A stretch of 12,527 nt of DNA from Propionibacteriaceae bacterium (GTDB lineage Bacteria; Actinomycetota; Actinomycetes; Propionibacteriales; Propionibacteriaceae), in the NCBI GenBank assembly GCA_031287505.1, contig JAITSW010000251.1, positions 1-12,527 of the forward strand. Reading direction: 5' to 3'. Both the position numbers and the translations under genes were made by a program. The notes beneath the pieces were generated by a model. That model ran no database searches. It saw only the letters and a list, made by a program, of their open reading frames with translations, and was not told the origin of the DNA. Shown one piece after another: positions 1 through 11,720 of this stretch (the first letter of the stretch is position 1; every line of letters starts with the position of its first letter).

Positions 1-1021
1 ATTTGGCATTATCGGCGACGTTCTGGGCGTAATCGCCAAAGGCCGGCTGGCGGGCCTCAGCCAGGGCGACAGCCTTGGCGGCCATCACGTTGCCCAGCGG
101 GCCGCCCAACACCATCGGACAGCCTTTGTCGATACTGTCCGCGTATTCTCCGGTGCCTAGCAACAGCCCTCCCCGCGGGCCGCGCAGCGACTTATGCGTG
201 GTGGTGGCCACCACATGCGCATAGGCGACCGGGTTCTCCTCCCCGGTGAAAACCTTGCCCGCCACCAAGCCGGCGAAATGCGCCATATCGACGAAAAGGG
301 TCGCGCCAACTTCGTCGGCAATCTCGCGCATCTTGGCGAAGTTGACCCGCCTGGGATATGCCGAGTATCCAGCCACAATAATGAGCGGCTTAAACTCTTT
401 GGCGTCGGCGCGCAGCTTGCCATAATCAATCAACTCGGTCACCGGGTCGGTGCCATAAGAACGCTGGTGGAACATTTTGCCCGAGATATTTGGACGGAAC
501 CCATGGGTTAGGTGACCGCCGACGTCCAGACTCATGCCCATCACCCGTTGCTTGGCAAAGGTGAAACGCAACTCCTCCCAATCGGCTTCGCCCAGGTCAT
601 TTACCGTCTTGGCACCCAAACGGGCCAACGTCGGCGACTCGATGCGGTGGTTCAAAATGGCCCAATAGGCCACCAGGTTGGCATCGATACCCGAATGCGG
701 CTGAACATAGGCGTATTCGGCGCCGAATAGCTCTCTAGCATGTTCTGCGCCAACAGCCTCAACCGTGTCGATGTTGTGGCATCCGGCGTACAAACGACGA
801 CCGATCGTCCCCTCGGCGTATTTGTCTGAAAGCCAGTTGCCCATGGCCAGCAACGTCGGCAAGGAGGCGTAATTTTCGGAAGCGATGAGTTTCAGGGATT
901 CGCGCTGATCGGCGAGTTCTCGGGCGATAGCGTCAGCGACTCGGGGCTCAACCTGGGCGATCAAGCTGAGAGCGGAAGTATAGATTTGGGAAGCTGTCTG
1001 GGCTGGGTCACTAGCGGTCAT
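1..1021 (-). CDS. glyA: Serine hydroxymethyltransferase, long form (3' end cut by window edge)
   Basis: Interconverts serine plus tetrahydrofolate with glycine plus 5,10-methylene-tetrahydrofolate; a cytosolic PLP enzyme. The visible 340 residues start at ATG 1021 and run off the left edge without a stop. Family motifs: LIASENY (residues 45-51), [15 protein letters not shown] (67-81), QPHSG (107-111), THG (172-174), AGYSAYPR (217-224), VDMAH (244-248) and [13 protein letters not shown] (273-285), with K277 the expected PLP lysine. About 25 extra residues lie before the [13 protein letters not shown] motif (roughly residues 124-160), as in the longer SHMT group known from chlamydiae, spirochaetes and some actinobacteria; that group assignment is from memory of the family. 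No Shine-Dalgarno lies at a usable distance, but a -10-like TATTCT ends 7 nt before the ATG, so translation may be leaderless. It diverges from lpdA across 105 bp. Confidence 0.95.
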
Positions 1022-2506: not shown

Positions 2507-3172
2507 TCAGCCTTGCAGCGGAACACCCTTGGCGTCTACTTTGATCGAGCCGGTCAAGATCATGATGCCTTCGACGAGACCCCAGATCGCGGCGGCGATT
2601 GGGCCCAAGCCGAGCAGAATCCAGCCGACCAAGGTTAGGAGTAGCTGGGCTACGGCTTTGCCGGTGTAGCCGAGGTAGAAGTTGTGCACGCCCAAAGACC
2701 CCACCAAGATGCCCAGGATGCCTGCCGCAACCTTGCTTTTCTGCTCACCGTAAACCGGCTGTGCGCCATAGGGTGCGTAGGGAGGCTGCTGGACATAGGG
2801 ATTCTGCGGTTGAGCGTAAGGAGGCTGCTGGCTATAAGGAGGCTGCTGGACATACTGCCCACCCGCGTTTGGATCAGGCTGTCCGAAGTTCTGCCCATAC
2901 GGATTGGGCTGGGCCGGAGCCTGCGGGGCGTAGGCATCTGATGTGCCGTAAGAAGGCTGCGGGTAAGGAGTCTGCTGACCGAAGGGATCAGCTAGCTGGC
3001 TCTCAAACGAAGTGGCTTGTGAAGCATCTGCCGGCTCGGCTTGGGACACTCCGAATTCTGGAGGCTGCACAAACTGCGAAGCCTGCTGATCGAAAGCCGG
3101 GCTTTCCGGTGCGCTATTGTCGCCCACTGGTGGGAGGTCAAGATATGATCCGTTCTGGTTGCCGTCTGTCAT
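2507..3172 (-). CDS. TM2-domain membrane protein with Pro/Gln/Tyr-rich N-terminus
   Basis: A 221-residue protein of unknown function. Residues 1-140 are low-complexity and rich in Pro, Gln, Tyr and Asn, with QQPPY/QNPY-type repeats at about 105-137; no signal peptide is seen. Residues 145-208 form a TM2 domain: basic KSK, a first hydrophobic helix GILGILVGSLG, the hallmark loop VHNFYLGYTGKA (162-173), then a second long hydrophobic stretch through about 207. A short polar tail follows. Known family: small inner-membrane proteins with two helices, often with Pro-rich cytoplasmic tails in actinobacteria; molecular role unknown. Start: ATG 3172 is preceded by AGGAGAG 5-6 nt upstream. It is convergent with lpdA and divergent from nifJ, so it is probably a single-gene unit, and nothing ties it to the redox genes. 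Confidence 0.9.
   Translation of the reverse strand: MTDGNQNGSYLDLPPVGDNSAPESPAFDQQASQFVQPPEFGVSQAEPADASQATSFESQLADPFGQQTPYPQPSYGTSDAYAPQAPAQPNPYGQNFGQPDPNAGGQYVQQPPYSQQPPYAQPQNPYVQQPPYAPYGAQPVYGEQKSKVAAGILGILVGSLGVHNFYLGYTGKAVAQLLLTLVGWILLGLGPIAAAIWGLVEGIMILTGSIKVDAKGVPLQG
2781..2852 (-). repeat. Short direct repeats encoding QQPPY units
   Basis: The 12-nt unit GGAGGCTGCTGG (plus-strand reading) occurs three times in about 70 bp. On the minus strand it encodes successive QQPPY motifs of the TM2 protein. Such repeats are expected to slip in copy number. Coordinates are accurate to a few bases. Confidence 0.6.
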
Positions 3173-3456: not shown

Positions 3457-3504
3457 AGTTGTCACTTGACTGGGCGCGCAGTCTTGCGCCAGCCCTTCTC
3501 CAGC

Positions 3505-3511
3505 AAAGGAG
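3505..3511 (+). promoter_or_regulatory. Ribosome binding site fixing the nifJ start at ATG 3520
   Basis: AAAGGAG lies 8 nt before ATG 3520. The frame is open upstream to a TTG at 3466, but that codon has no SD and the 18 extra residues have no PFOR similarity, so the ATG is preferred. Confidence 0.85.
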
Positions 3512-3519
3512 CAAGATTT

Positions 3520-6500
3520 ATGTCAGCTGAATCTCCGCGATATCCAGGCGCGTCGGATGTAATCAACGGTAACGGGGCGGTAGCCCATGTTATGCGGCAT
3601 GTGTGCGGAGGTGTGATTGGCTACCCAATTACCCCGTCCACGGAAATCGCCGAAACGTATGAGGCCTTCCGCGCCGAAGGCCAAATCAATGCCTGGGGGC
3701 GGCATCCCTTCTTTGTCGAGGCTGAAGGGGAGCATTCGGCGCAATCGGGAGCCCTGGGCGCCGCGCTGACCGGTGGAAACTTCATCTCCAACGCGTCCTC
3801 GTCGCAAGGCATCCTCTACGCGCTGGAATCCCACTTCGTCACCGCCGGCAAAAAGATCGGCGGCTTCGTGCTGCAGGTGGCAGCCCGGGTGGTCTCCAAG
3901 CACTCCCTAAACGTGATGGCCGGGCATGACGACATCTACTCGCTGCTGCCTTCGGGTTACACCATCTTGTTTGGCTCCAATCCGCAAGAAGCCGCCGACT
4001 TGGCTGCCATCTCGTACAAGGTCTCGGCGCTCTCGCTTATCCCGGTCGCCAACACCATGGACGGCTTTGCCACCAGCCATGTGATGAGCGAGGTGCTGCT
4101 TCCCGAGGCGGAGTTGCTGCGCGACTTCTTGGGTGACCCAACAGGCCGAATCAAGTGTCCGACGGTAGCCCAAGAGATGCTTTTCGGAGCTAAAGGACGC
4201 GTCTTCCAGTTGCGCCAGTTCGTCGAGCGCAACGCGCTTGCCTTTGACGCCGAAGTGCGCAACCAGCTTGACGCTTTCCTTGAAGACAACGCCGACGCTG
4301 TCGAGGCAGATGCCGCCGGCACCCTGATAGCGCAGACCCAGGCTTTGGTGCCGCCCAAGCTCCAAGAGCGTTGGCGCCGCCAGTGGCTGAACGCTTGGGA
4401 GAAGGGCACCCGGCAGTTGGTTCCAGCACTTGTCGACCCAAACAACCCCGGCCTGACCGGCCCGGTGCAGAACCAGCCAGATTTCCAGGCTGGTTCGGTA
4501 GACCACCGCACCCACTTCGTCTCGGCGGTGCCTGCCATCGTCAAACAGGCGATGGACGAGTATTCCGAACTCACCGGTCGCGAGTATCAGGTAGTCCAGC
4601 GTTACGGCGCTGCCGATGCCGATTACGCCTTCATCGGCCTGGGGTCTATCACCGACGACGCCCGCGCCGTGCTGCCTTATCTAGAATCCATCGGCTTGAA
4701 GGTTGCCGTGGTCTCGATCAAGATGCTGCAGCCCTTCCCGGATGCCGAGTTGGTGGCCGCCGTGCAAGGTGCCAAGTCCATCACCATTTTGGAGCGTTCG
4801 GACGACACCGCGCTGACCCGCCTCACCACGCAGGCGCTCTTCCGCGCCAGCGCCAACTCCCAGGCTCCAAACAGCTTCCCGAATGTGGGAGCCCTAGACG
4901 GGCCGCTGCCGCAGATCACCACCGCCATCTTCGGTCTGGGCGGTCACGACGTGCAGCCGCGCGACATGGTCGCCGCTGCCGAAAACATGAAAGCCCGCGC
5001 CGCCGGCGCCGGTGCCCCGCTGGTGTACATCGGCTCGCAATTTTTTGCCAAAAACCCGGCTCCGTCTGTCAAAGCGCTGCAAGACCGCCTGCGCGCCGCC
5101 TACCCGGAGACCGAATTGATGGCACTTCAGACCGGCGAGAATCCGCGGCTGCTGCCCGCCGGAGCCTTGCGAATCCGCTTCCATTCGGTGGGCGGATACG
5201 GCACGGTCGCCACCGGCAAGTTGCTCACCGACATCTTGGCGGGCGTTCTTTCGATGCACTCCAAATCTTCCCCCAAATATGGCTCCGAGAAATCGGGGGC
5301 ACCGACGAACTACTACATCACCCTCTCCCCCGAGCCGGTATTGCTCACCAACGCCGAGCTTGAAGATGTCGACGTGGTTGTCTGCCCAGACGAAAAGGCC
5401 TTCCACCACACCAACCCGCTCAAAGGCCTTGGCTCGGGCGGCACCTTCATCTTGCAGTCTTCGCAACAGCCGCATGAAGTCTGGCAAGATCTACCGGCCT
5501 TCGTTCGCGCCTACATCAAAGAAAAGCAGATCAAATTCCTCGTCGTGGACGCCTTCGCCGTTGCGAAGAAGCACGCCCCCACTCCCGAACTGCAAACCCG
5601 CATGATGGGTATCGCCTTCATCGGCGCCATCATCGAGCACGTCGACCAGATCACCGAGCGCGCTGGCGGCGATGTGAAAGAACTCGTCCGCCATGAAATC
5701 GCGAAGAAATTCGGACGCAAAGGCGACGCGGTCGTCGAAAGCAACATGGCCGTCATCCGCGACGGTGGCGAGGCAACCTCTTCCATCGAATACAACAGCG
5801 ACGACTTCTTGGCTTTCGAGCAGGCTCCCGCTGTCGCCAAGCGCTCGTCCGCCCTTTCGGCTTCTATGTGTCCTGCTGTCGGCGAAGCCCGTCCTAGCCC
5901 GCTCTTTGATCCGGCCTATTACGAAGATCTCGCCGCCCGTCCCTTCCGCGAGGGAACTATTGGCGAGTCTCCAGTACTGCCCGGAGCGGGCTTATTCATG
6001 CCCGTGGGCACTGGGGCTGTCAAAAACAAGGGGCTCTTCCGCCGCACCGTCCCGGTTTTTGACCCCGCCAAGTGCACAGCTTGTATGGAATGCGCGTTGG
6101 TTTGCCCAGACGCCGCCATCCCCAACACCGCCCATGAGATTGCCGATCTGTTGCAGGCCGCCGTGCGGGCCGCTGACATCACGGACGCCGACAAGGCGGC
6201 AGTGGGCAGCATCATCGAGCCTTGGGCCGAGGAAATCCGTAAGCGCTATTCCGTGGAGAAGGCTACCGACACCTTCGCCAACACCGCCTTCGCAGCCGCC
6301 GCGCCGCTGGAGGATACCGAACTCACCCGTTGCCTGTACGCCATCTCCGCGCAGTTGAAGGTGCTTCCGGTGGCTCGCCCCCGTCCCATTTTTGATGCCT
6401 TCGAACGGGACGAGCCTGGCACCGGCGGTCTTTACTCGGTCGTCGTCGACCCTTGGAAGTGCACCGGCTGCCTGCAATGTGTTGAGGTCTGCGGGCCAGG

Positions 6501-8598
6501 CGCACTCAGCGCCGTGGAGCAGGACGAAGAAATCGCCGAACAGTTGGCGTCTTGTTTCGAGCGGCTAACTGAGCTTCCCAATACCCCGGCCAGATTCACC
6601 GCCGACGCTATTGAACCTGGTGGCGACACTAAGCGCATCATGTTGGACCGCAAGTACTACTACTCGATGACCGGCGGCCACGGCGCTTGCCGCGGCTGTG
6701 GCGAAGTCACCGCGACGCGTTTGGTCACCGCGCTAAGCCACGCGATCGGCGACGAGCAGCGCAAGGCGCACATCGAAGAGCTTGAGAAGACCATCTCGGC
6801 TTTGGCTCAGAAGCTCTCCAGCGTCACCGATGTCGCCCGCCAGGCTCGTATCGAAGGCGCTATCACCGAGTTGGATAAGCGGCTTTACCTCTACGAGGCC
6901 GGCCCGACAGGCCGCGGCCCGGCTTCGACCGTCATCGCCAACTCGACGGGCTGCTCCAGCGTTTACGCCTCCACGATGCCCTTCCAGCCTTACCTCGACC
7001 CGTGGGTAAACTCGCTCTTCCAAGACGCGCAGGCGTTGGCCGTGGGCATCTTCGAAGGCTTGGTTTCCGAATACACCGGGGAGGTCAAGGCACTGCGCAC
7101 CGCTGAGCTTGAGCTCGCCGACGCTTACGACCCGGCTGTTCACGATGCGCCTATATCTTTGGTTGGCTGGCGTGATTTCACCCCTAAAGAGTTGGCTCTA
7201 CTGCCTAACGTCCTGACCATCGGCGGTGACGGGGCCACCTACGACATCGGCTTTGGCGCCCTCTCCCGGGTGCTGGCTTCCGGCACCCCGATCAAGGCGC
7301 TCGTGCTCGACACCGGCGTCTACTCAAATACCGGCGGGCAGGCCTCATCGGCCTCCTACACCGGCCAAGATGTTGACTTGGCGCGTTTTGGCAAAGGCCA
7401 TCAGGGCAAGCGCGAGCTTCGCAAGGAACTCGGGCTCATCGCGTCCTTCCATCCAAACGTGTTTGCCTGTGCCACCTCCACCGCTCTGCATTCGCACTAT
7501 TTAGAGACGGTGATGTCGCTGCTGGGCTATCAAGATGGGGCGGGTGTCATGGTCACCTACACCGCTTGCGGCACCGAGAACGGCGTCCCCGAAGATCTTT
7601 CCAACGCGCGCGCGCAGCTGGCCGTTGAATCGCGGCTCAGCCCAGTCTTCATCCACGATCCACGGCTCGGGGAGAGCATCACCGACCGGTTCGTGTTAGA
7701 CGGCAACCCAGATGTCGACCAGCTTTGGACATCCTCCACTTTGGAATACGTGGACGGGCAAGGAAACTTGCAATTGCTTCAAACACCCCTCACCCCTGCC
7801 GAGTTTGCCCTCGGCGAGGTGCGGTTCGCCAAGCAGTTCAAGAAGTTGGCCGACGATGTGGGTGCCGTTCCGATTTCCGAATACGTGGAGTTAGGGCTGT
7901 CGCAGCGCGAGGGGAAGATTCCGTTCGTTTATGCCACCGACAAAAAGCGCCAGCTGATTAAGGTCGCATGCTCGGCAGCCATCGTTGCCTTGGTCGAAGA
8001 CCGCAAGCACTACTGGCAGACGCTGCAGTTCCTTGCGGGTGTTGCCGGTCAGCAACTCACAGCCGCCCACGCCGCCGAGCTGGCCGCGCTGAACGCCCGC
8101 TATGAAGAGGCGGTGGCCGGACGCGAAGAGTCGCTAGACGAAATCGCGGCAGCTTTGGTTGAATTGGCCACCGCGTCGCCGAAGGCTCTAGAGCCGGTTG
8201 TCGAGCCGGCGGAAGTCGATCCGAGAGACGAGCTAGCCGCTGCGCTAATCTCGCTGACCACCTCGACCACTCCTTTTAGCGGCTTCCGCTTTGGGAGCGA
8301 GCCGGCTGCGACCGCGCAAACCGAAGCTGTGCCAGGGCAGCCTGCCGCAGCCGTCGCGAAAGCCGGCCCACCGCCGATCTTCTTGGCGGCGGCCGACGAG
8401 CCCAAGTGTGTGGACTGTGGGACGTGCTACCAAGAGCTGCCCCAGCTGTTTGCGAAGGCGACGATAATAGTCGATGGAGAAGCCAAGACCGTCGGGCACT
8501 TGATCAAAGGCTCGTTGGAGAAGCTGACCCTCACCCCCGACCTGCAAAAGAAAATCAACAAAGTAAAAGCTAGCTGTGATGCGGAGATCATCCAATGA
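3520..8598 (+). CDS. nifJ: Giant single-chain pyruvate:ferredoxin (2-oxoacid) oxidoreductase with extra C-terminal ferredoxin-like domain
   Basis: Oxidatively decarboxylates pyruvate (or a related 2-oxoacid) with CoA to acetyl-CoA, CO2 and low-potential electrons; cytosolic. The 1692 residues follow the PFOR order. Domain I carries YPITPST (35-41) and AARVVSKHSLNV. Domain II carries GLGS (373-376). The gamma-like CoA domain carries GGYGTV (558-563). A two-cluster ferredoxin domain follows, with C852/C855/C858/C862 and C981/C984/C987/C991. The thiamine diphosphate domain carries C1057, C1060, C1145 and C1350, matching the four proximal-cluster ligands known in the Desulfovibrio africanus enzyme, plus GDG at 1236-1238 and YSNTGGQ from Y1268. 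Relative to the usual 1170-1230 residues it has helical inserts at about 207-303, between the two ferredoxin motifs (118 instead of about 45 residues), and between C1060 and C1145 (coiled-coil-like). A C-terminal arm of 200-plus residues has a Pro/Ala-rich linker and CX2CX2C (C1630, C1633, C1636) plus C1686, a likely single [4Fe-4S] domain. It overlaps the next gene by ATGA. Substrate preference is inferred. Confidence 0.95.
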   Translation: MSAESPRYPGASDVINGNGAVAHVMRHVCGGVIGYPITPSTEIAETYEAFRAEGQINAWGRHPFFVEAEGEHSAQSGALGAALTGGNFISNASSSQGILYALESHFVTAGKKIGGFVLQVAARVVSKHSLNVMAGHDDIYSLLPSGYTILFGSNPQEAADLAAISYKVSALSLIPVANTMDGFATSHVMSEVLLPEAELLRDFLGDPTGRIKCPTVAQEMLFGAKGRVFQLRQFVERNALAFDAEVRNQLDAFLEDNADAVEADAAGTLIAQTQALVPPKLQERWRRQWLNAWEKGTRQLVPALVDPNNPGLTGPVQNQPDFQAGSVDHRTHFVSAVPAIVKQAMDEYSELTGREYQVVQRYGAADADYAFIGLGSITDDARAVLPYLESIGLKVAVVSIKMLQPFPDAELVAAVQGAKSITILERSDDTALTRLTTQALFRASANSQAPNSFPNVGALDGPLPQITTAIFGLGGHDVQPRDMVAAAENMKARAAGAGAPLVYIGSQFFAKNPAPSVKALQDRLRAAYPETELMALQTGENPRLLPAGALRIRFHSVGGYGTVATGKLLTDILAGVLSMHSKSSPKYGSEKSGAPTNYYITLSPEPVLLTNAELEDVDVVVCPDEKAFHHTNPLKGLGSGGTFILQSSQQPHEVWQDLPAFVRAYIKEKQIKFLVVDAFAVAKKHAPTPELQTRMMGIAFIGAIIEHVDQITERAGGDVKELVRHEIAKKFGRKGDAVVESNMAVIRDGGEATSSIEYNSDDFLAFEQAPAVAKRSSALSASMCPAVGEARPSPLFDPAYYEDLAARPFREGTIGESPVLPGAGLFMPVGTGAVKNKGLFRRTVPVFDPAKCTACMECALVCPDAAIPNTAHEIADLLQAAVRAADITDADKAAVGSIIEPWAEEIRKRYSVEKATDTFANTAFAAAAPLEDTELTRCLYAISAQLKVLPVARPRPIFDAFERDEPGTGGLYSVVVDPWKCTGCLQCVEVCGPGALSAVEQDEEIAEQLASCFERLTELPNTPARFTADAIEPGGDTKRIMLDRKYYYSMTGGHGACRGCGEVTATRLVTALSHAIGDEQRKAHIEELEKTISALAQKLSSVTDVARQARIEGAITELDKRLYLYEAGPTGRGPASTVIANSTGCSSVYASTMPFQPYLDPWVNSLFQDAQALAVGIFEGLVSEYTGEVKALRTAELELADAYDPAVHDAPISLVGWRDFTPKELALLPNVLTIGGDGATYDIGFGALSRVLASGTPIKALVLDTGVYSNTGGQASSASYTGQDVDLARFGKGHQGKRELRKELGLIASFHPNVFACATSTALHSHYLETVMSLLGYQDGAGVMVTYTACGTENGVPEDLSNARAQLAVESRLSPVFIHDPRLGESITDRFVLDGNPDVDQLWTSSTLEYVDGQGNLQLLQTPLTPAEFALGEVRFAKQFKKLADDVGAVPISEYVELGLSQREGKIPFVYATDKKRQLIKVACSAAIVALVEDRKHYWQTLQFLAGVAGQQLTAAHAAELAALNARYEEAVAGREESLDEIAAALVELATASPKALEPVVEPAEVDPRDELAAALISLTTSTTPFSGFRFGSEPAATAQTEAVPGQPAAAVAKAGPPPIFLAAADEPKCVDCGTCYQELPQLFAKATIIVDGEAKTVGHLIKGSLEKLTLTPDLQKKINKVKASCDAEIIQ

Positions 8599-11423
8599 CC
8601 ACTGAAATTCCCTCAAAGATCAACGATCAAAACCGTCTGGGCCATCCCGTCAGCCCAGGCTCTGGCACTGCGGCTGGCACTGCTGCCAGACGAGTAGACC
8701 CGGCCAGCACAGCTGCGGCTTTGTCACTGCTAGAGCGTCGGCTCCAAACCGATCCGAGCCTCTTCCGCGACCTCTTTATCTCAGATGGCATGGCCGCCGT
8801 CGCAGGTGAATTCCGGCAAGAAGAACTCAGTGAAGAATTCACCCTGAAGCTGTGGGACACCCTGCTTGGCGGCGGAGATGCCGCAACTGTTTTGCAGCGT
8901 TTCCTATGGCAACTGCCGCTGAAAAAGAAGAAGGTCTTCTTGGCCGCTGTCGATACCCACCTCTCGCAGCGCTACCCGATGTTTGCCGGGCTATCGGATA
9001 TGTGGCCCACCGGCAACGGCATCCATCCGTACATTCGTCCAGCCGACGAGCGGGCCAAAGATTTTGAGCTGGTCAACAAGGGCTATCTGGGCTATCAGGA
9101 TCTTGGCTACAGCCTGCGCGAGGTCGAGCTCTTCGTCTGGTTGGAGGCTTTGCGAGATCGCCAATGCGCCAAAACACCTTGCCAACTCGGTGAGCTAAAC
9201 CGCAAGACCGGGGTGTATACCGGCGGCTGCCCGGTACAGGTCAATATCTCCACCATGTTTGAGCTGATCGGCGAGGGAAAATTTGACCAGGCGTTAGAAC
9301 TGCTCGAAGGCTGCAACCCGCTGCCCGACGTAACTGGCCGGGTTTGCCCACAAGAGCTGCAATGCCAGGGCTCATGCATCCACAAACATCCGATGTCGAT
9401 CGGCCAGGTCGAGTGGTTCTTGCCCGAGTGGGACAAGCTCGCCAACCCAGATGCCGCATTGAAGCGTTACGAGGGGACGCCCGACCCATGGCAGGTTGCG
9501 GATAAGGCACCCGTCGCGATTGTCGGCTCTGGCCCCTCTGGTTTGATTACCGCCTTCTTGCTGGCTCGCCACGGGGTGCCAGTCACGGTTTTTGAGGCTT
9601 TCCACGAGCTCGGTGGGGTGCTGCGTTATGGCATCCCAGAATTCCGCCTTCCCAACGTCCTCATCGACGACGTCGTTGCCAAGATCCGCCTACTCGGCGG
9701 ACGTTTTGTCACCAATTTCGTGGTGGGCAAGACGGCTACCCTGCAAGAGTTGGAAGCGGCTGGCTTCACCCGAATTTTCGTCGGTTCTGGCGCTGGTTTG
9801 CCACAGTTCTTGAATGTTCCCGGCGAGCACCTGCTCGGCGTGATGTCAGCCAATGAGTTCCTCACCCGAGTGAACTTAATGCAGGCTCACCGGGAAACCC
9901 ATGAGACGCCACTGCCGCCGGTTGCAGGCAAGAATGTGCTGATCATCGGTGGCGGCAACACCGCCATGGACGCGGCTCGCACCGCTAAACGCTTGGGCGG
10001 AAACGTCACTATCGTCTACCGCCGGACTCGCGAAGAAATGCCAGCCCGCGTCGAAGAGCTACACCACGCTCTCGAAGAGGGCATTGCGCTTGCGACTCTC
10101 CGCTCGCCGTCCGAATTCAAAGCAAGCGAAGGCTCTCCCTGGGTTGCTACGGCGGTTGTCGACATCATGGAGCTCGGCGAGGCAGATGAATCGGGTCGGC
10201 GGCGTCCGATAAACACCGGGGAATCTGAAGAGATCGGGGCTGATTTGGTCATCATGGCTCTGGGCAACTCGGCGAATCCGATTATCAAGGATTCCGAACC
10301 GCGCCTACTCATCACCAAACGGGGCGGCATCGAGTTGCGTGAAGGCTCGCAAGAAACCACGGTCGCCGGCATCTATTCCGGCGGCGACGCGGCTCGCGGC
10401 GGCTCGACGGCCATCAGGGCTGCCGGCGATGGACGCACGGCAGCCTATGAGATCGCAGAGGTTTTAGACCCCGAGGAGGATGTTGCCCAGCTCGTGGCGC
10501 GAGCCTTGGCCTACACCGACAAGGTGTCCTCCCGCCCGGTGATCTTGGAGAAGCGGAACCTATCGCACAACATCGAGGAGCTGGTGGTCTTTGCCCCGGC
10601 GATCGCGTCGGCTGCCCGGGCAGGCCAGTTCGTCAGGGTGCTGCCCTATGTGGGTGGCGAACTCATCCCGCTGACTTTGGCCGATTGGGATGCCGCTGCC
10701 GGCACCATCACCTTGGCCGTCCAGCAGATGGGCACTTCGTCGACTCGCATCAACCGCATGACCGCGGGCGATGCCTTGGCTGGTATTGCCGGCCCGCTTG
10801 GCCAGCCGAGCGAGCTCCACAAATATGCGGACGACGAGACGGTGGTCTTCACCGCCGGCGGCCTCGGACTGCCGCCGGTCTATCCGATCATGCGCGAGCA
10901 CCTACGGCTGGGCAATCACGTCACGCTGATCGCCGGCTTCCGTTCAAAGGATTTAATGTTCTGGACGGATCTGGAAGAGCGCGTCCCAGCATTGCAAGCC
11001 GAGTTCGGCGACAAGCTGGAAGTTGTCTACGCCACAAACGACGGCACCTACGGTGTTGAAGGCTTCGTGACGACCCCGCTGGAGCCCTTGCTCGCCGCTA
11101 CCCAAGACGGCACCGCGACCCGCAAGATCGCCGAGGTGGTCACCATCGGCCCACCGCTGATGATGCGTTCGGTCTCTGACCTGACCAAACGTTACGGCGT
11201 GAAGTGCGTAGCCTCGCTGAACTCGATCATGGTAGATGCCACCGGCATGTGCGGTGCCTGCATGGTGCCGGTCAACGAGAACGGCAAGCTGGTGCGCAAG
11301 CACGCCTGCATCGACGGCCCCGAGCTAGACTCCCACAGCATCGATTGGGATAAATTCTTGCCCCGCTTCAGCTTCTTCAAAGCTCAAGAGCAGGCCAGCA
11401 AGGAGCGCGCCGGGTTGGTGTAG
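8595..11423 (+). CDS. NfnB-NfnA fusion: NAD(P)H:ferredoxin-type flavoprotein with extra N-terminal domain
   Basis: A 942-residue probable cytosolic electron-transfer flavoprotein. Residues 1-145 are an unrecognised, mostly helical extension after a disordered start. Residues about 150-620 resemble NfnB/GltD: Fe-S cysteines C191, C196, C212, C251, C257, C261, an FAD fold GSGPSG (311-316), an NADP-type fold GGGNTAMD (452-459) with YRR (R476, R477), and GGD (D598). A linker (about 624-646) leads to an NfnA/PyrK-like half: PLTLADWD (692-699) for FAD, GGLGLPP (755-761) for NAD(H), and a [2Fe-2S] site D881/C886/C889/C905 in DATGMCGAC. Known NfnAB couples NADH, NADPH and ferredoxin by flavin-based bifurcation, with Asp plus three Cys on its [2Fe-2S] cluster. 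T249 before GRVC and E254 in CPQE fit Nfn better than GltD. The start ATG overlaps the nifJ stop (ATGA), with GGAG at 8583-8586. No glutamate synthase large subunit is nearby, so a GltD role is unlikely. NADP(H) and NAD(H) use is inferred. Confidence 0.88.
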   Translation: MTTEIPSKINDQNRLGHPVSPGSGTAAGTAARRVDPASTAAALSLLERRLQTDPSLFRDLFISDGMAAVAGEFRQEELSEEFTLKLWDTLLGGGDAATVLQRFLWQLPLKKKKVFLAAVDTHLSQRYPMFAGLSDMWPTGNGIHPYIRPADERAKDFELVNKGYLGYQDLGYSLREVELFVWLEALRDRQCAKTPCQLGELNRKTGVYTGGCPVQVNISTMFELIGEGKFDQALELLEGCNPLPDVTGRVCPQELQCQGSCIHKHPMSIGQVEWFLPEWDKLANPDAALKRYEGTPDPWQVADKAPVAIVGSGPSGLITAFLLARHGVPVTVFEAFHELGGVLRYGIPEFRLPNVLIDDVVAKIRLLGGRFVTNFVVGKTATLQELEAAGFTRIFVGSGAGLPQFLNVPGEHLLGVMSANEFLTRVNLMQAHRETHETPLPPVAGKNVLIIGGGNTAMDAARTAKRLGGNVTIVYRRTREEMPARVEELHHALEEGIALATLRSPSEFKASEGSPWVATAVVDIMELGEADESGRRRPINTGESEEIGADLVIMALGNSANPIIKDSEPRLLITKRGGIELREGSQETTVAGIYSGGDAARGGSTAIRAAGDGRTAAYEIAEVLDPEEDVAQLVARALAYTDKVSSRPVILEKRNLSHNIEELVVFAPAIASAARAGQFVRVLPYVGGELIPLTLADWDAAAGTITLAVQQMGTSSTRINRMTAGDALAGIAGPLGQPSELHKYADDETVVFTAGGLGLPPVYPIMREHLRLGNHVTLIAGFRSKDLMFWTDLEERVPALQAEFGDKLEVVYATNDGTYGVEGFVTTPLEPLLAATQDGTATRKIAEVVTIGPPLMMRSVSDLTKRYGVKCVASLNSIMVDATGMCGACMVPVNENGKLVRKHACIDGPELDSHSIDWDKFLPRFSFFKAQEQASKERAGLV

Positions 11424-11442
11424 TGTCCCCCACCAAGGTATG

Positions 11443-11468
11443 TGGGTTTGCCGAGGTTTTGGTTGACT
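11443..11468 (+). repeat. Left inverted repeat of the IS remnant
   Basis: 26 bp starting TGGGTTTGCCGAGG; the reverse complement of 11642-11667 except for two mismatches (at repeat positions 15 and 21). Confidence 0.75.
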
Positions 11469-11484
11469 TTGGGACACTCGACAC

Positions 11485-11613
11485 CAACTACGGCTAAAAA
11501 TCGTTCACTGGATAGAAGCAACTCATAACCGGCGAAGACGACAACGACGGCTAGGCAAACTCACCCCCATCGAATACGAAACTCTCACAGTCGGCCACAC
11601 CAAAACCGAATAA
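11485..11613 (+). pseudogene. C-terminal fragment of an IS3-family transposase
   Basis: The plus-strand frame ending at TAA 11611-11613 reads LRLKIVHWIEATHNRRRR followed by QRRLGKLTPIEYE and a short tail. This is the typical end of IS3-group integrase-type transposases (WI..YNRRRRQ..LGKLTP.EYE). About 42 codons remain; the catalytic DDE region and the start are absent and no ribosome binding site is present. Similarity begins abruptly just after the left inverted repeat, which shows internal deletion of the element rather than simple decay. It is not expected to make a functional product. Confidence 0.75.
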
Positions 11614-11641
11614 GGCAAAGCGGCTTAAACGACAAAACAGC

Positions 11642-11667
11642 AGTCAGCCAAACCCTCGGCAAACCCA
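11642..11667 (-). repeat. Right inverted repeat of the IS remnant
   Basis: 26 bp ending CCTCGGCAAACCCA; the partner of 11443-11468 with 24 of 26 matching bases. It lies about 30 bp after the transposase stop, the usual place for the right end of an IS3-type element. Confidence 0.75.
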
Positions 11668-11671
11668 AATG

Positions 11672-11703
11672 CCTGTGGGGGCAGCACCGGCTGCCCCCAC
11701 AGG
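11672..11703. terminator. Perfect 14-bp stem-loop between convergent genes
   Basis: CCTGTGGGGGCAGC pairs perfectly with GCTGCCCCCACAGG around the loop ACCG. There is no real T-tract on either side. It sits between the 3' ends of the Nfn-like gene and the minus-strand BIG2 gene (stop 11721-11723), so it probably terminates both transcripts, as T-tail-less hairpins can in actinobacteria. Its left arm overlaps the outer part of the IS remnant's right end. Confidence 0.7.
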
Positions 11704-11720
11704 TTAGTTGAGCTACCTAC

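Follow-up and report, generated by a model that had tools for sequence, protein, structure and literature searches.

The DNA analysed here (the window) is a stretch of 12,527 nt from a Propionibacteriaceae bacterium (GenBank assembly GCA_031287505.1, contig JAITSW010000251.1) and holds an isolated two-gene unit on contig C183 of an assembly that is 71% complete. The first gene (3520..8598, plus strand) encodes a PFOR-like protein of 1692 amino acids; its start was placed at the ATG at 3520, preceded by a probable ribosome-binding site AAAGGAG (3505..3511, plus strand), with a TTG at 3466 as the alternative in the list of open reading frames. The second gene (8595..11423, plus strand), recognised from the same list and from domain matches, encodes an NfnB-NfnA fusion of 942 amino acids, designated NfnBA. 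The genes share a start/stop overlap ATGA (8595..8598, plus strand), and GGAG (8583..8586, plus strand), the probable ribosome-binding site for NfnBA, is located within the PFOR gene, as an earlier, sequence-only reading of this DNA had described; it stands 8 nt 5′ of the second ATG. The translational coupling deduced there from this arrangement is supported by the homologs: among 64 homologous rows, including two that duplicate others, 51 have the earliest in-frame start codon of the partner gene placed so as to give the 4-nt overlap, which is thus not a product of chance. Upstream of the pair are genes for serine hydroxymethyltransferase (2-1021, minus strand), dihydrolipoyl dehydrogenase (1127-2497) and a TM2 protein (2507-3172, minus strand), and downstream of NfnBA, on the minus strand, lies a gene for a Big_2 protein identified by family match.

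The first protein has the layout of the single-chain PFOR superfamily: POR_N (residues 31-204), PFOR_II (367-430), POR gamma (558-749), two four-cysteine Fe-S motifs and a TPP-binding part follow each other in this order. The Fer4 matches (around residues 844-991) coincide with two [4Fe-4S] motifs of domain V, C852 C855 C858 C862 (6073..6105, plus strand; Fer4_6 at 844-867) and C981 C984 C987 C991 (6460..6492, plus strand), a CRGCGE motif is found at residue 1057, and the C-terminal TPP domain (TPP_enzyme_C, residues 1230-1282) scores 21.5 bits, just under its cut-off of 21.9. Single-chain PFORs are the best relatives in both NCBIfam and PDB, the Moorella PFOR structure 6cin matching at 1.1e-88. 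With 405.1 bits against TIGR02176, the single-chain PFOR equivalog whose curated cut-off is 911, the protein is not a member of that equivalog. YPITPS, the Arg of AARVV and YSNTGG are all present, the first two within stretches aligned to the PDB relatives, and presumably play their catalytic roles in PFOR. Domain order and cluster motifs are as in the PFORs of Moorella (6cin) and Desulfovibrio africanus (1b0p/7plm), from which the protein differs by its inserts, its C-terminal ferredoxin domain and its length (1692 versus 1171-1232 amino acids); hereafter it is called the extended PFOR. The source genome contains a second, canonical PFOR at C106:4476-7988, which scores 1690.5 bits to TIGR02176.

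That both proteins carry domains beyond those of the canonical enzymes, as claimed before, proved correct. In NfnBA the addition is an N-terminal helical region, and the extended PFOR ends in a variable linker followed by a single-cluster ferredoxin domain, which the sequence-only reading had not named. The linker (residues ~1553-1617, codons 8176..8370, plus strand) is poorly conserved (mean 0.18 at residues 1561-1600, 59 rows), differs in length between 50 and 122 amino acids when residue 1540 and the first tail cysteine are taken as its ends in the same 59 rows, and is predicted to be disordered, with pLDDT <50 at local positions 754-818 of an AlphaFold model of PFOR residues 800-1692 only. 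The tail domain (codons 8395..8595, plus strand) carries C1630, C1633, C1636 and C1686 in a C-x2-C-x2-C-x49-C motif; these cysteines are conserved in the 59 rows, and the domain is folded in the same partial model (block mean pLDDT 71-86, local 821-890). It matches Fer4_13 (residues 1626-1647) with E 4e-4, just under the cut-off of that family, and gives a weak match (E 0.21) to the solved putative ferredoxin 7m1o. Genome searches located the tail sequence in all five tailed genomes searched, always at the C-terminus of PFOR; it was not found in any of 13 tail-less genomes or of eight genomes with standalone NfnBA. We read the tail as a tethered electron carrier to NfnBA.

The domain order of the second protein is NfnB then NfnA, with Fer4_20 at residues 210-280, Pyr_redox_2 at 307-612 and DHODB_Fe-S at 876-916. 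Model NF009415 (PRK12779) aligns over residues 41-940 (profile positions 43-942 of 944) and scores 1514.1 bits, the cut-off being 1519. In a structure model of mean pLDDT 80.6 the NfnB and NfnA folds are both recognised, and the best Foldseek matches include both subunits of Pyrococcus furiosus NfnI and, of Thermotoga NfnAB, the large one; the large subunits (P. furiosus 5jca, T. maritima 4ylf) are 37-41% identical to NfnBA. Like the bifurcating NfnAB enzymes, NfnBA keeps, besides these folds, the Arg near FAD and the Asp/Cys3 [2Fe-2S] motif. The former is Arg351 of PEFRLP (9645..9647, plus strand), aligned to P. furiosus NfnL and invariant in 46 rows; the latter is formed in the NfnA part by Asp881, Cys886, Cys889 and Cys905 (11235..11309, plus strand), placed by alignment, with Asp881 invariant in 46 NfnBA rows. 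By our own count on the alignment Arg351 corresponds to NfnL Arg201, which we take to be the Arg at FAD N5. An Arg in this location is described for Nfn (PMC6405883).

NfnBA departs from the bifurcating NfnAB in its fused B-A order, in the N-terminal helical extension seen in the structure model (residues ~36-150; 8700..9044, plus strand) and in one cluster motif. The latter reads Asp188-x2-Cys191-x4-Cys196-x15-Cys212 (9156..9230, plus strand), with Asp (codon 9156-9158) replacing the first Cys in 58/58 rows, so that the full set of Cys ligands for the two NfnB clusters, a feature of bifurcating Nfn, is not retained. The ordinary NfnB of Cohaesibacter (L030) has the canonical C-x2-C-x4-C-x3-C, and relative to it NfnBA has 12 extra residues before the fourth ligand. 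Judging by the ligands of dihydropyrimidine dehydrogenase, the Asp188 cluster is presumably the one further from FAD. Because Asp replaces a cysteine here, the potentials of NfnBA may differ from those of Nfn. In ordinary Nfn the ferredoxin is predicted to dock near the distal NfnB cluster (PMC6405883). The ordinary two-gene NfnAB of Cohaesibacter (L030:1610-3897) lies upstream of a tailed PFOR-NfnBA pair, on the opposite strand.

Among the fused forms of Nfn, Pattern C has been defined as a single gene, about 200 amino acids longer, with the NfnA module C-terminal, from Actinobacteria, Alpha- and Gammaproteobacteria (Liang et al. 2019, PMC6405883). The gene described here, with its homologs, is one reading frame with NfnB followed by NfnA, about 200 amino acids longer than other fusions and found in Actinobacteria or Proteobacteria; NfnBA thus fits Pattern C.

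The association of the two genes was followed in the best 80 of 89 named-genome loci and in loci from further genomes. From the count of partners 13 loci without the 3′ end of PFOR and L042 (<300 nt remaining) were left out, and the 64 tailed rows correspond to 62 distinct loci, since L095 and L096 repeat L093 and L094; L033 and L067 are 97% alike, and the PFOR of L083 is in broken pieces. Among loci whose downstream DNA extends for 300 nt or more, NfnBA lies immediately 3′ of PFOR in all 62 distinct tailed ones and in none of the 13 that are tail-less. A whole-genome search (E up to 1e-60) gave an NfnBA match in six of six tailed proteobacterial genomes. Tailed PFOR and NfnBA are therefore a conserved cassette, and the co-occurrence of the two extended proteins expected in the sequence-only reading holds for every distinct tailed locus counted. 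The same reading would have been contradicted by an extended PFOR commonly lacking the partner; such PFORs exist, but they are those of the tail-less clade (13/13), the tailed ones having the partner in 62/62.

Sixty relatives were examined in the same respect. Twenty match PFOR at 1e-30, and 19 of these are extended once G025, whose 32% match is to a 1214-aa frame of canonical length, is dropped; 29 match NfnBA at 1e-60, or 27 after removal of G013 and G024, which match only to a frame of shorter homology (38%). By coordinates, NfnBA lies beside the extended PFOR in 17 of the 19. In the other two, G006 (L113, contig C215) and G013 (L112, contig C201), the extended PFOR is cut off by the end of its contig, and NfnBA of this type was not found elsewhere in the genome. 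Class-wide scans (E up to 1e-200, at most two candidates scored per genome) returned one of 289 and three of 296 genomes, the centre genome being counted each time. A natural fusion of the two proteins, for which a genome search had been suggested, was not encountered: the best 120 of 990 matches to a joined query contain no bona fide fusion. The sole candidate among them, P0241 (2587 aa), was rejected as a frameshift, because at the junction the ferredoxin tail is translated in a wrong frame and the NfnBA frame is joined only after that.

The tail-less PFORs belong to Pleomorphomonas, Oryzibacter, Consotaella, Roseospira and a further proteobacterium and form one alphaproteobacterial clade of 15 rows, one of them a repeat (L092, which duplicates L035 and is absent from the locus count). 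The clade branches from within the tailed rows of the tree, and does so too when three canonical PFOR regions whose frame contains the YPITPS motif serve as the outgroup. The tail-less state being a single clade, loss of the tail and NfnBA was one evolutionary event; many independent losses were rejected on the same ground. No NfnBA match (E up to 1e-60) was found in the whole-genome search of the 13 tail-less genomes, and the PFOR core of 13 tail-less rows is not short of any segment of four or more residues. The frame of L040 is broken near residue 1480, and its tail-less call is based on the lack of a tail match in genome G063. All 13 tail-less genomes have nifH over the cut-off, as do 4 of 17 tailed genomes. 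One Consotaella tail-less PFOR is located within the order NifU, aminotransferase V, HMGL-like (homocitrate-synthase-like), NifW, PFOR, DRAT; the neighbour of the Pleomorphomonas one was identified by family search as FeoB, not a nif gene. By inference, a PFOR without tail and partner fits NifJ, passing its electrons to a free carrier. Consotaella salsifontis has two tail-less PFOR copies (L041 and L060), the latter inside the nif cluster.

On the gene architecture, the motifs, the tail and its linker, their conservation, the co-occurrence and the joint absence we base the following reading: the products of the two genes probably work together as a single enzyme system, namely a pyruvate (2-oxoacid):NAD(P)+ oxidoreductase with a tethered-ferredoxin wire. 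The chemistry of the PFOR and Nfn families is established; for Nfn it is also set out in PMC6405883. In the pathway we infer, the two proteins would be in physical contact, and the PFOR part would oxidise pyruvate with CoA on thiamine diphosphate. Two low-potential electrons would then pass through the three [4Fe-4S] clusters of PFOR to a fourth cluster, in the ferredoxin domain on its flexible C-terminal tether, and this domain would swing over to the NfnB half and reach its distal cluster, from which the electrons would go on to FAD. There they could either reduce NADP+ directly or be joined with NADH electrons from the NfnA half by confurcation, in which case the reaction would be pyruvate + CoA + NADH + 2 NADP+ → acetyl-CoA + CO2 + NAD+ + 2 NADPH. 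Translational coupling would ensure matched synthesis of PFOR and NfnBA. In the lineage using PFOR beside nitrogen fixation the tail and the partner are both missing, which would free electrons for diffusible carriers. Only tentatively do we put forward the stricter version, in which the PFOR arm delivers electrons exclusively to bound Nfn, two NADPH are made by confurcation with NADH without any diffusible carrier, and loss of the arm made the enzyme an electron donor of nitrogenase.

The joint absence could also be a matter of shared descent, one clade having lost tail and NfnBA for unrelated reasons. One clade and one event on the tree are what this explanation expects, but the tail is kept in the other 59 tree rows, from Propionibacteriaceae to Alteromonadaceae, with the partner present wherever downstream DNA is readable, and we regard a mere coincidence as rather unlikely.

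A different explanation is raised by genomes that have NfnBA alone. NfnBA occurs without the extended PFOR in 10 of the 60 relatives (G003, G004, G007, G008, G018, G020, G022, G023, G025 and G029; in G004 and G029 as pieces at contig ends only), and the flanks fetched for these ten genomes, several of which are incomplete assemblies, contain no PFOR match. Eight full-length standalone Pattern C copies (L097-L104) make up two clades that branch within the linked ones. In view of these copies the idea that NfnBA is obligately tied to the extended PFOR was rejected. They also weaken one side of the sequence-only reading, which had proposed a stable complex sending pyruvate electrons straight to NADP(H)/NAD(H): coupling, co-occurrence and the matching redox roles of the two proteins, which are supported, speak for it, the standalone NfnBA genes and the lack of a bona fide fusion among the best 120 of 990 matches against it. 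The pair might thus be an ordinary operon, in which PFOR reduces free ferredoxin, NfnBA draws on the pool and the tail is accessory or protective, e.g. an oxygen shield for the clusters. Retention of NfnBA in genomes without the extended PFOR agrees with this, as does the fact that all ten of them match the canonical PFOR family (nine over the cut-off), and matched expression could be explained by gene order alone. We nevertheless consider an ordinary operon unlikely, because the tail is missing from every searched genome that lacks NfnBA and has a readable PFOR, and because a complete, conserved ferredoxin set of cysteines on a long variable linker would be superfluous for a pure shield.

The standalone copies were used to look for docking residues under the preferred reading, that of one enzyme system with a tethered ferredoxin. 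Of the conserved NfnBA positions that have changed, all three in the larger standalone clade and two of nine in the smaller belong to the N-terminal extra region. Against all conserved NfnBA positions (18 of 351 in the extra region) p is about 1e-4; with eleven linked control clades as reference, where 6 of 36 changed positions are in the region, the larger clade gives p 0.009 and the two pooled give 0.086. The same test on the PFOR core, with nine changed positions, gave nothing clear beyond controls. The N-terminal helical region is thus a candidate docking region, which the sequence comparison makes only suggestive.

A match to the canonical PFOR family was obtained in 20 of 20 genomes tested, the source genome included, and exceeded the cut-off in 19. 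The PFOR-NfnBA pair is for this reason not the only pyruvate route of the cell and may use another 2-oxoacid. That the substrate is indeed one other than pyruvate, with the mechanism otherwise unchanged, is in line with this coexistence and with the TIGR02176 score (405 vs 911 bits), but the best NCBIfam model and the best PDB relatives are pyruvate enzymes and the catalytic motifs YPITPS, AARVV and YSNTGG are in place; we judge it unlikely. Reverse running, in which low-potential electrons driven by NADPH through NfnBA and the tail would turn acetyl-CoA and CO2 into pyruvate, is very improbable: PFOR and Nfn are reversible families and NADPH bifurcation does yield low-potential electrons (PMC6405883), but the locus bears no sign of carboxylation and the tail-less forms next to nif genes are consistent with oxidation of pyruvate.

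Two elements of the system are already known, the Pattern C class of Nfn and a postulated PFOR-Nfn complex in Propionibacterium. Fused Nfn patterns have been called uncharacterised, with Pattern C among the homologs perhaps needing more attention, and a phylogeny cited in the same paper (Poudel et al. 2018) places an actinobacterial Pattern C member at the base of Nfn (PMC6405883). The available parts of that paper describe no constant PFOR partner or ferredoxin tail for Pattern C, PFOR being named in the legend of a gene-arrangement figure. In Propionibacterium PFOR is co-transcribed with NfnB-like and NfnA-like genes and a complex has been postulated; knockout of PFOR severely crippled the growth of P. 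freudenreichii (PMC7650540, section 3.4.3 for the complex). The likeness lies in PFOR accompanied by Nfn-like genes, whereas there the two are separate, flanking genes, quinol is the proposed donor and section 3.4.3 mentions no tethered ferredoxin. In the open-access literature searched we found no description of a ferredoxin-tailed PFOR or of a link of such a tail to NfnBA, and these are what is new here.

Eukaryotic PNO combines PFOR with an NADP module that was given up again in some lineages, whose enzyme is PFO once more (PMC6993867); the tail-less clade shows a similar loss. PNO has its NADPH-cytochrome P450 reductase module fused in one chain, unlike the separate genes here; the Pfam matches of PFOR and NfnBA include no NADPH-P450 reductase domain, which places the pair outside PNO. 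Phenylglyoxylate dehydrogenase Pad, which is NADH-dependent, also oxidises a 2-oxoacid and has an NAD-linked flavin subunit of its own; it has separate subunits, unlike the pair, and its models NF045764 and NF045766 gave 116.4 and 45.1 bits against a cut-off of 700, so that the pair is not Pad either.

If the reading of a single enzyme system is true, bacteria would be able to make NADPH with electrons from pyruvate and no free carrier in between, and the cell would insulate low-potential electrons within one machine instead of sharing them through a common ferredoxin pool. A dedicated PFOR with a tethered ferredoxin would give Pattern C Nfn a concrete donor, and the pair could serve as a soluble pyruvate-to-NADPH module for metabolic engineering.

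The region directly 3′ of the NfnBA stop (11424-11720) contains an inverted repeat with arms at 11427-11468 and 11642-11681 (86%). A 21-aa reading within it has no Pfam match, the interior has a 79% copy on contig C219, and the region looks like a mobile-element remnant. A terminator-like hairpin of 14 pairs (11672-11703, minus strand) lies between NfnBA and the Big_2 gene.
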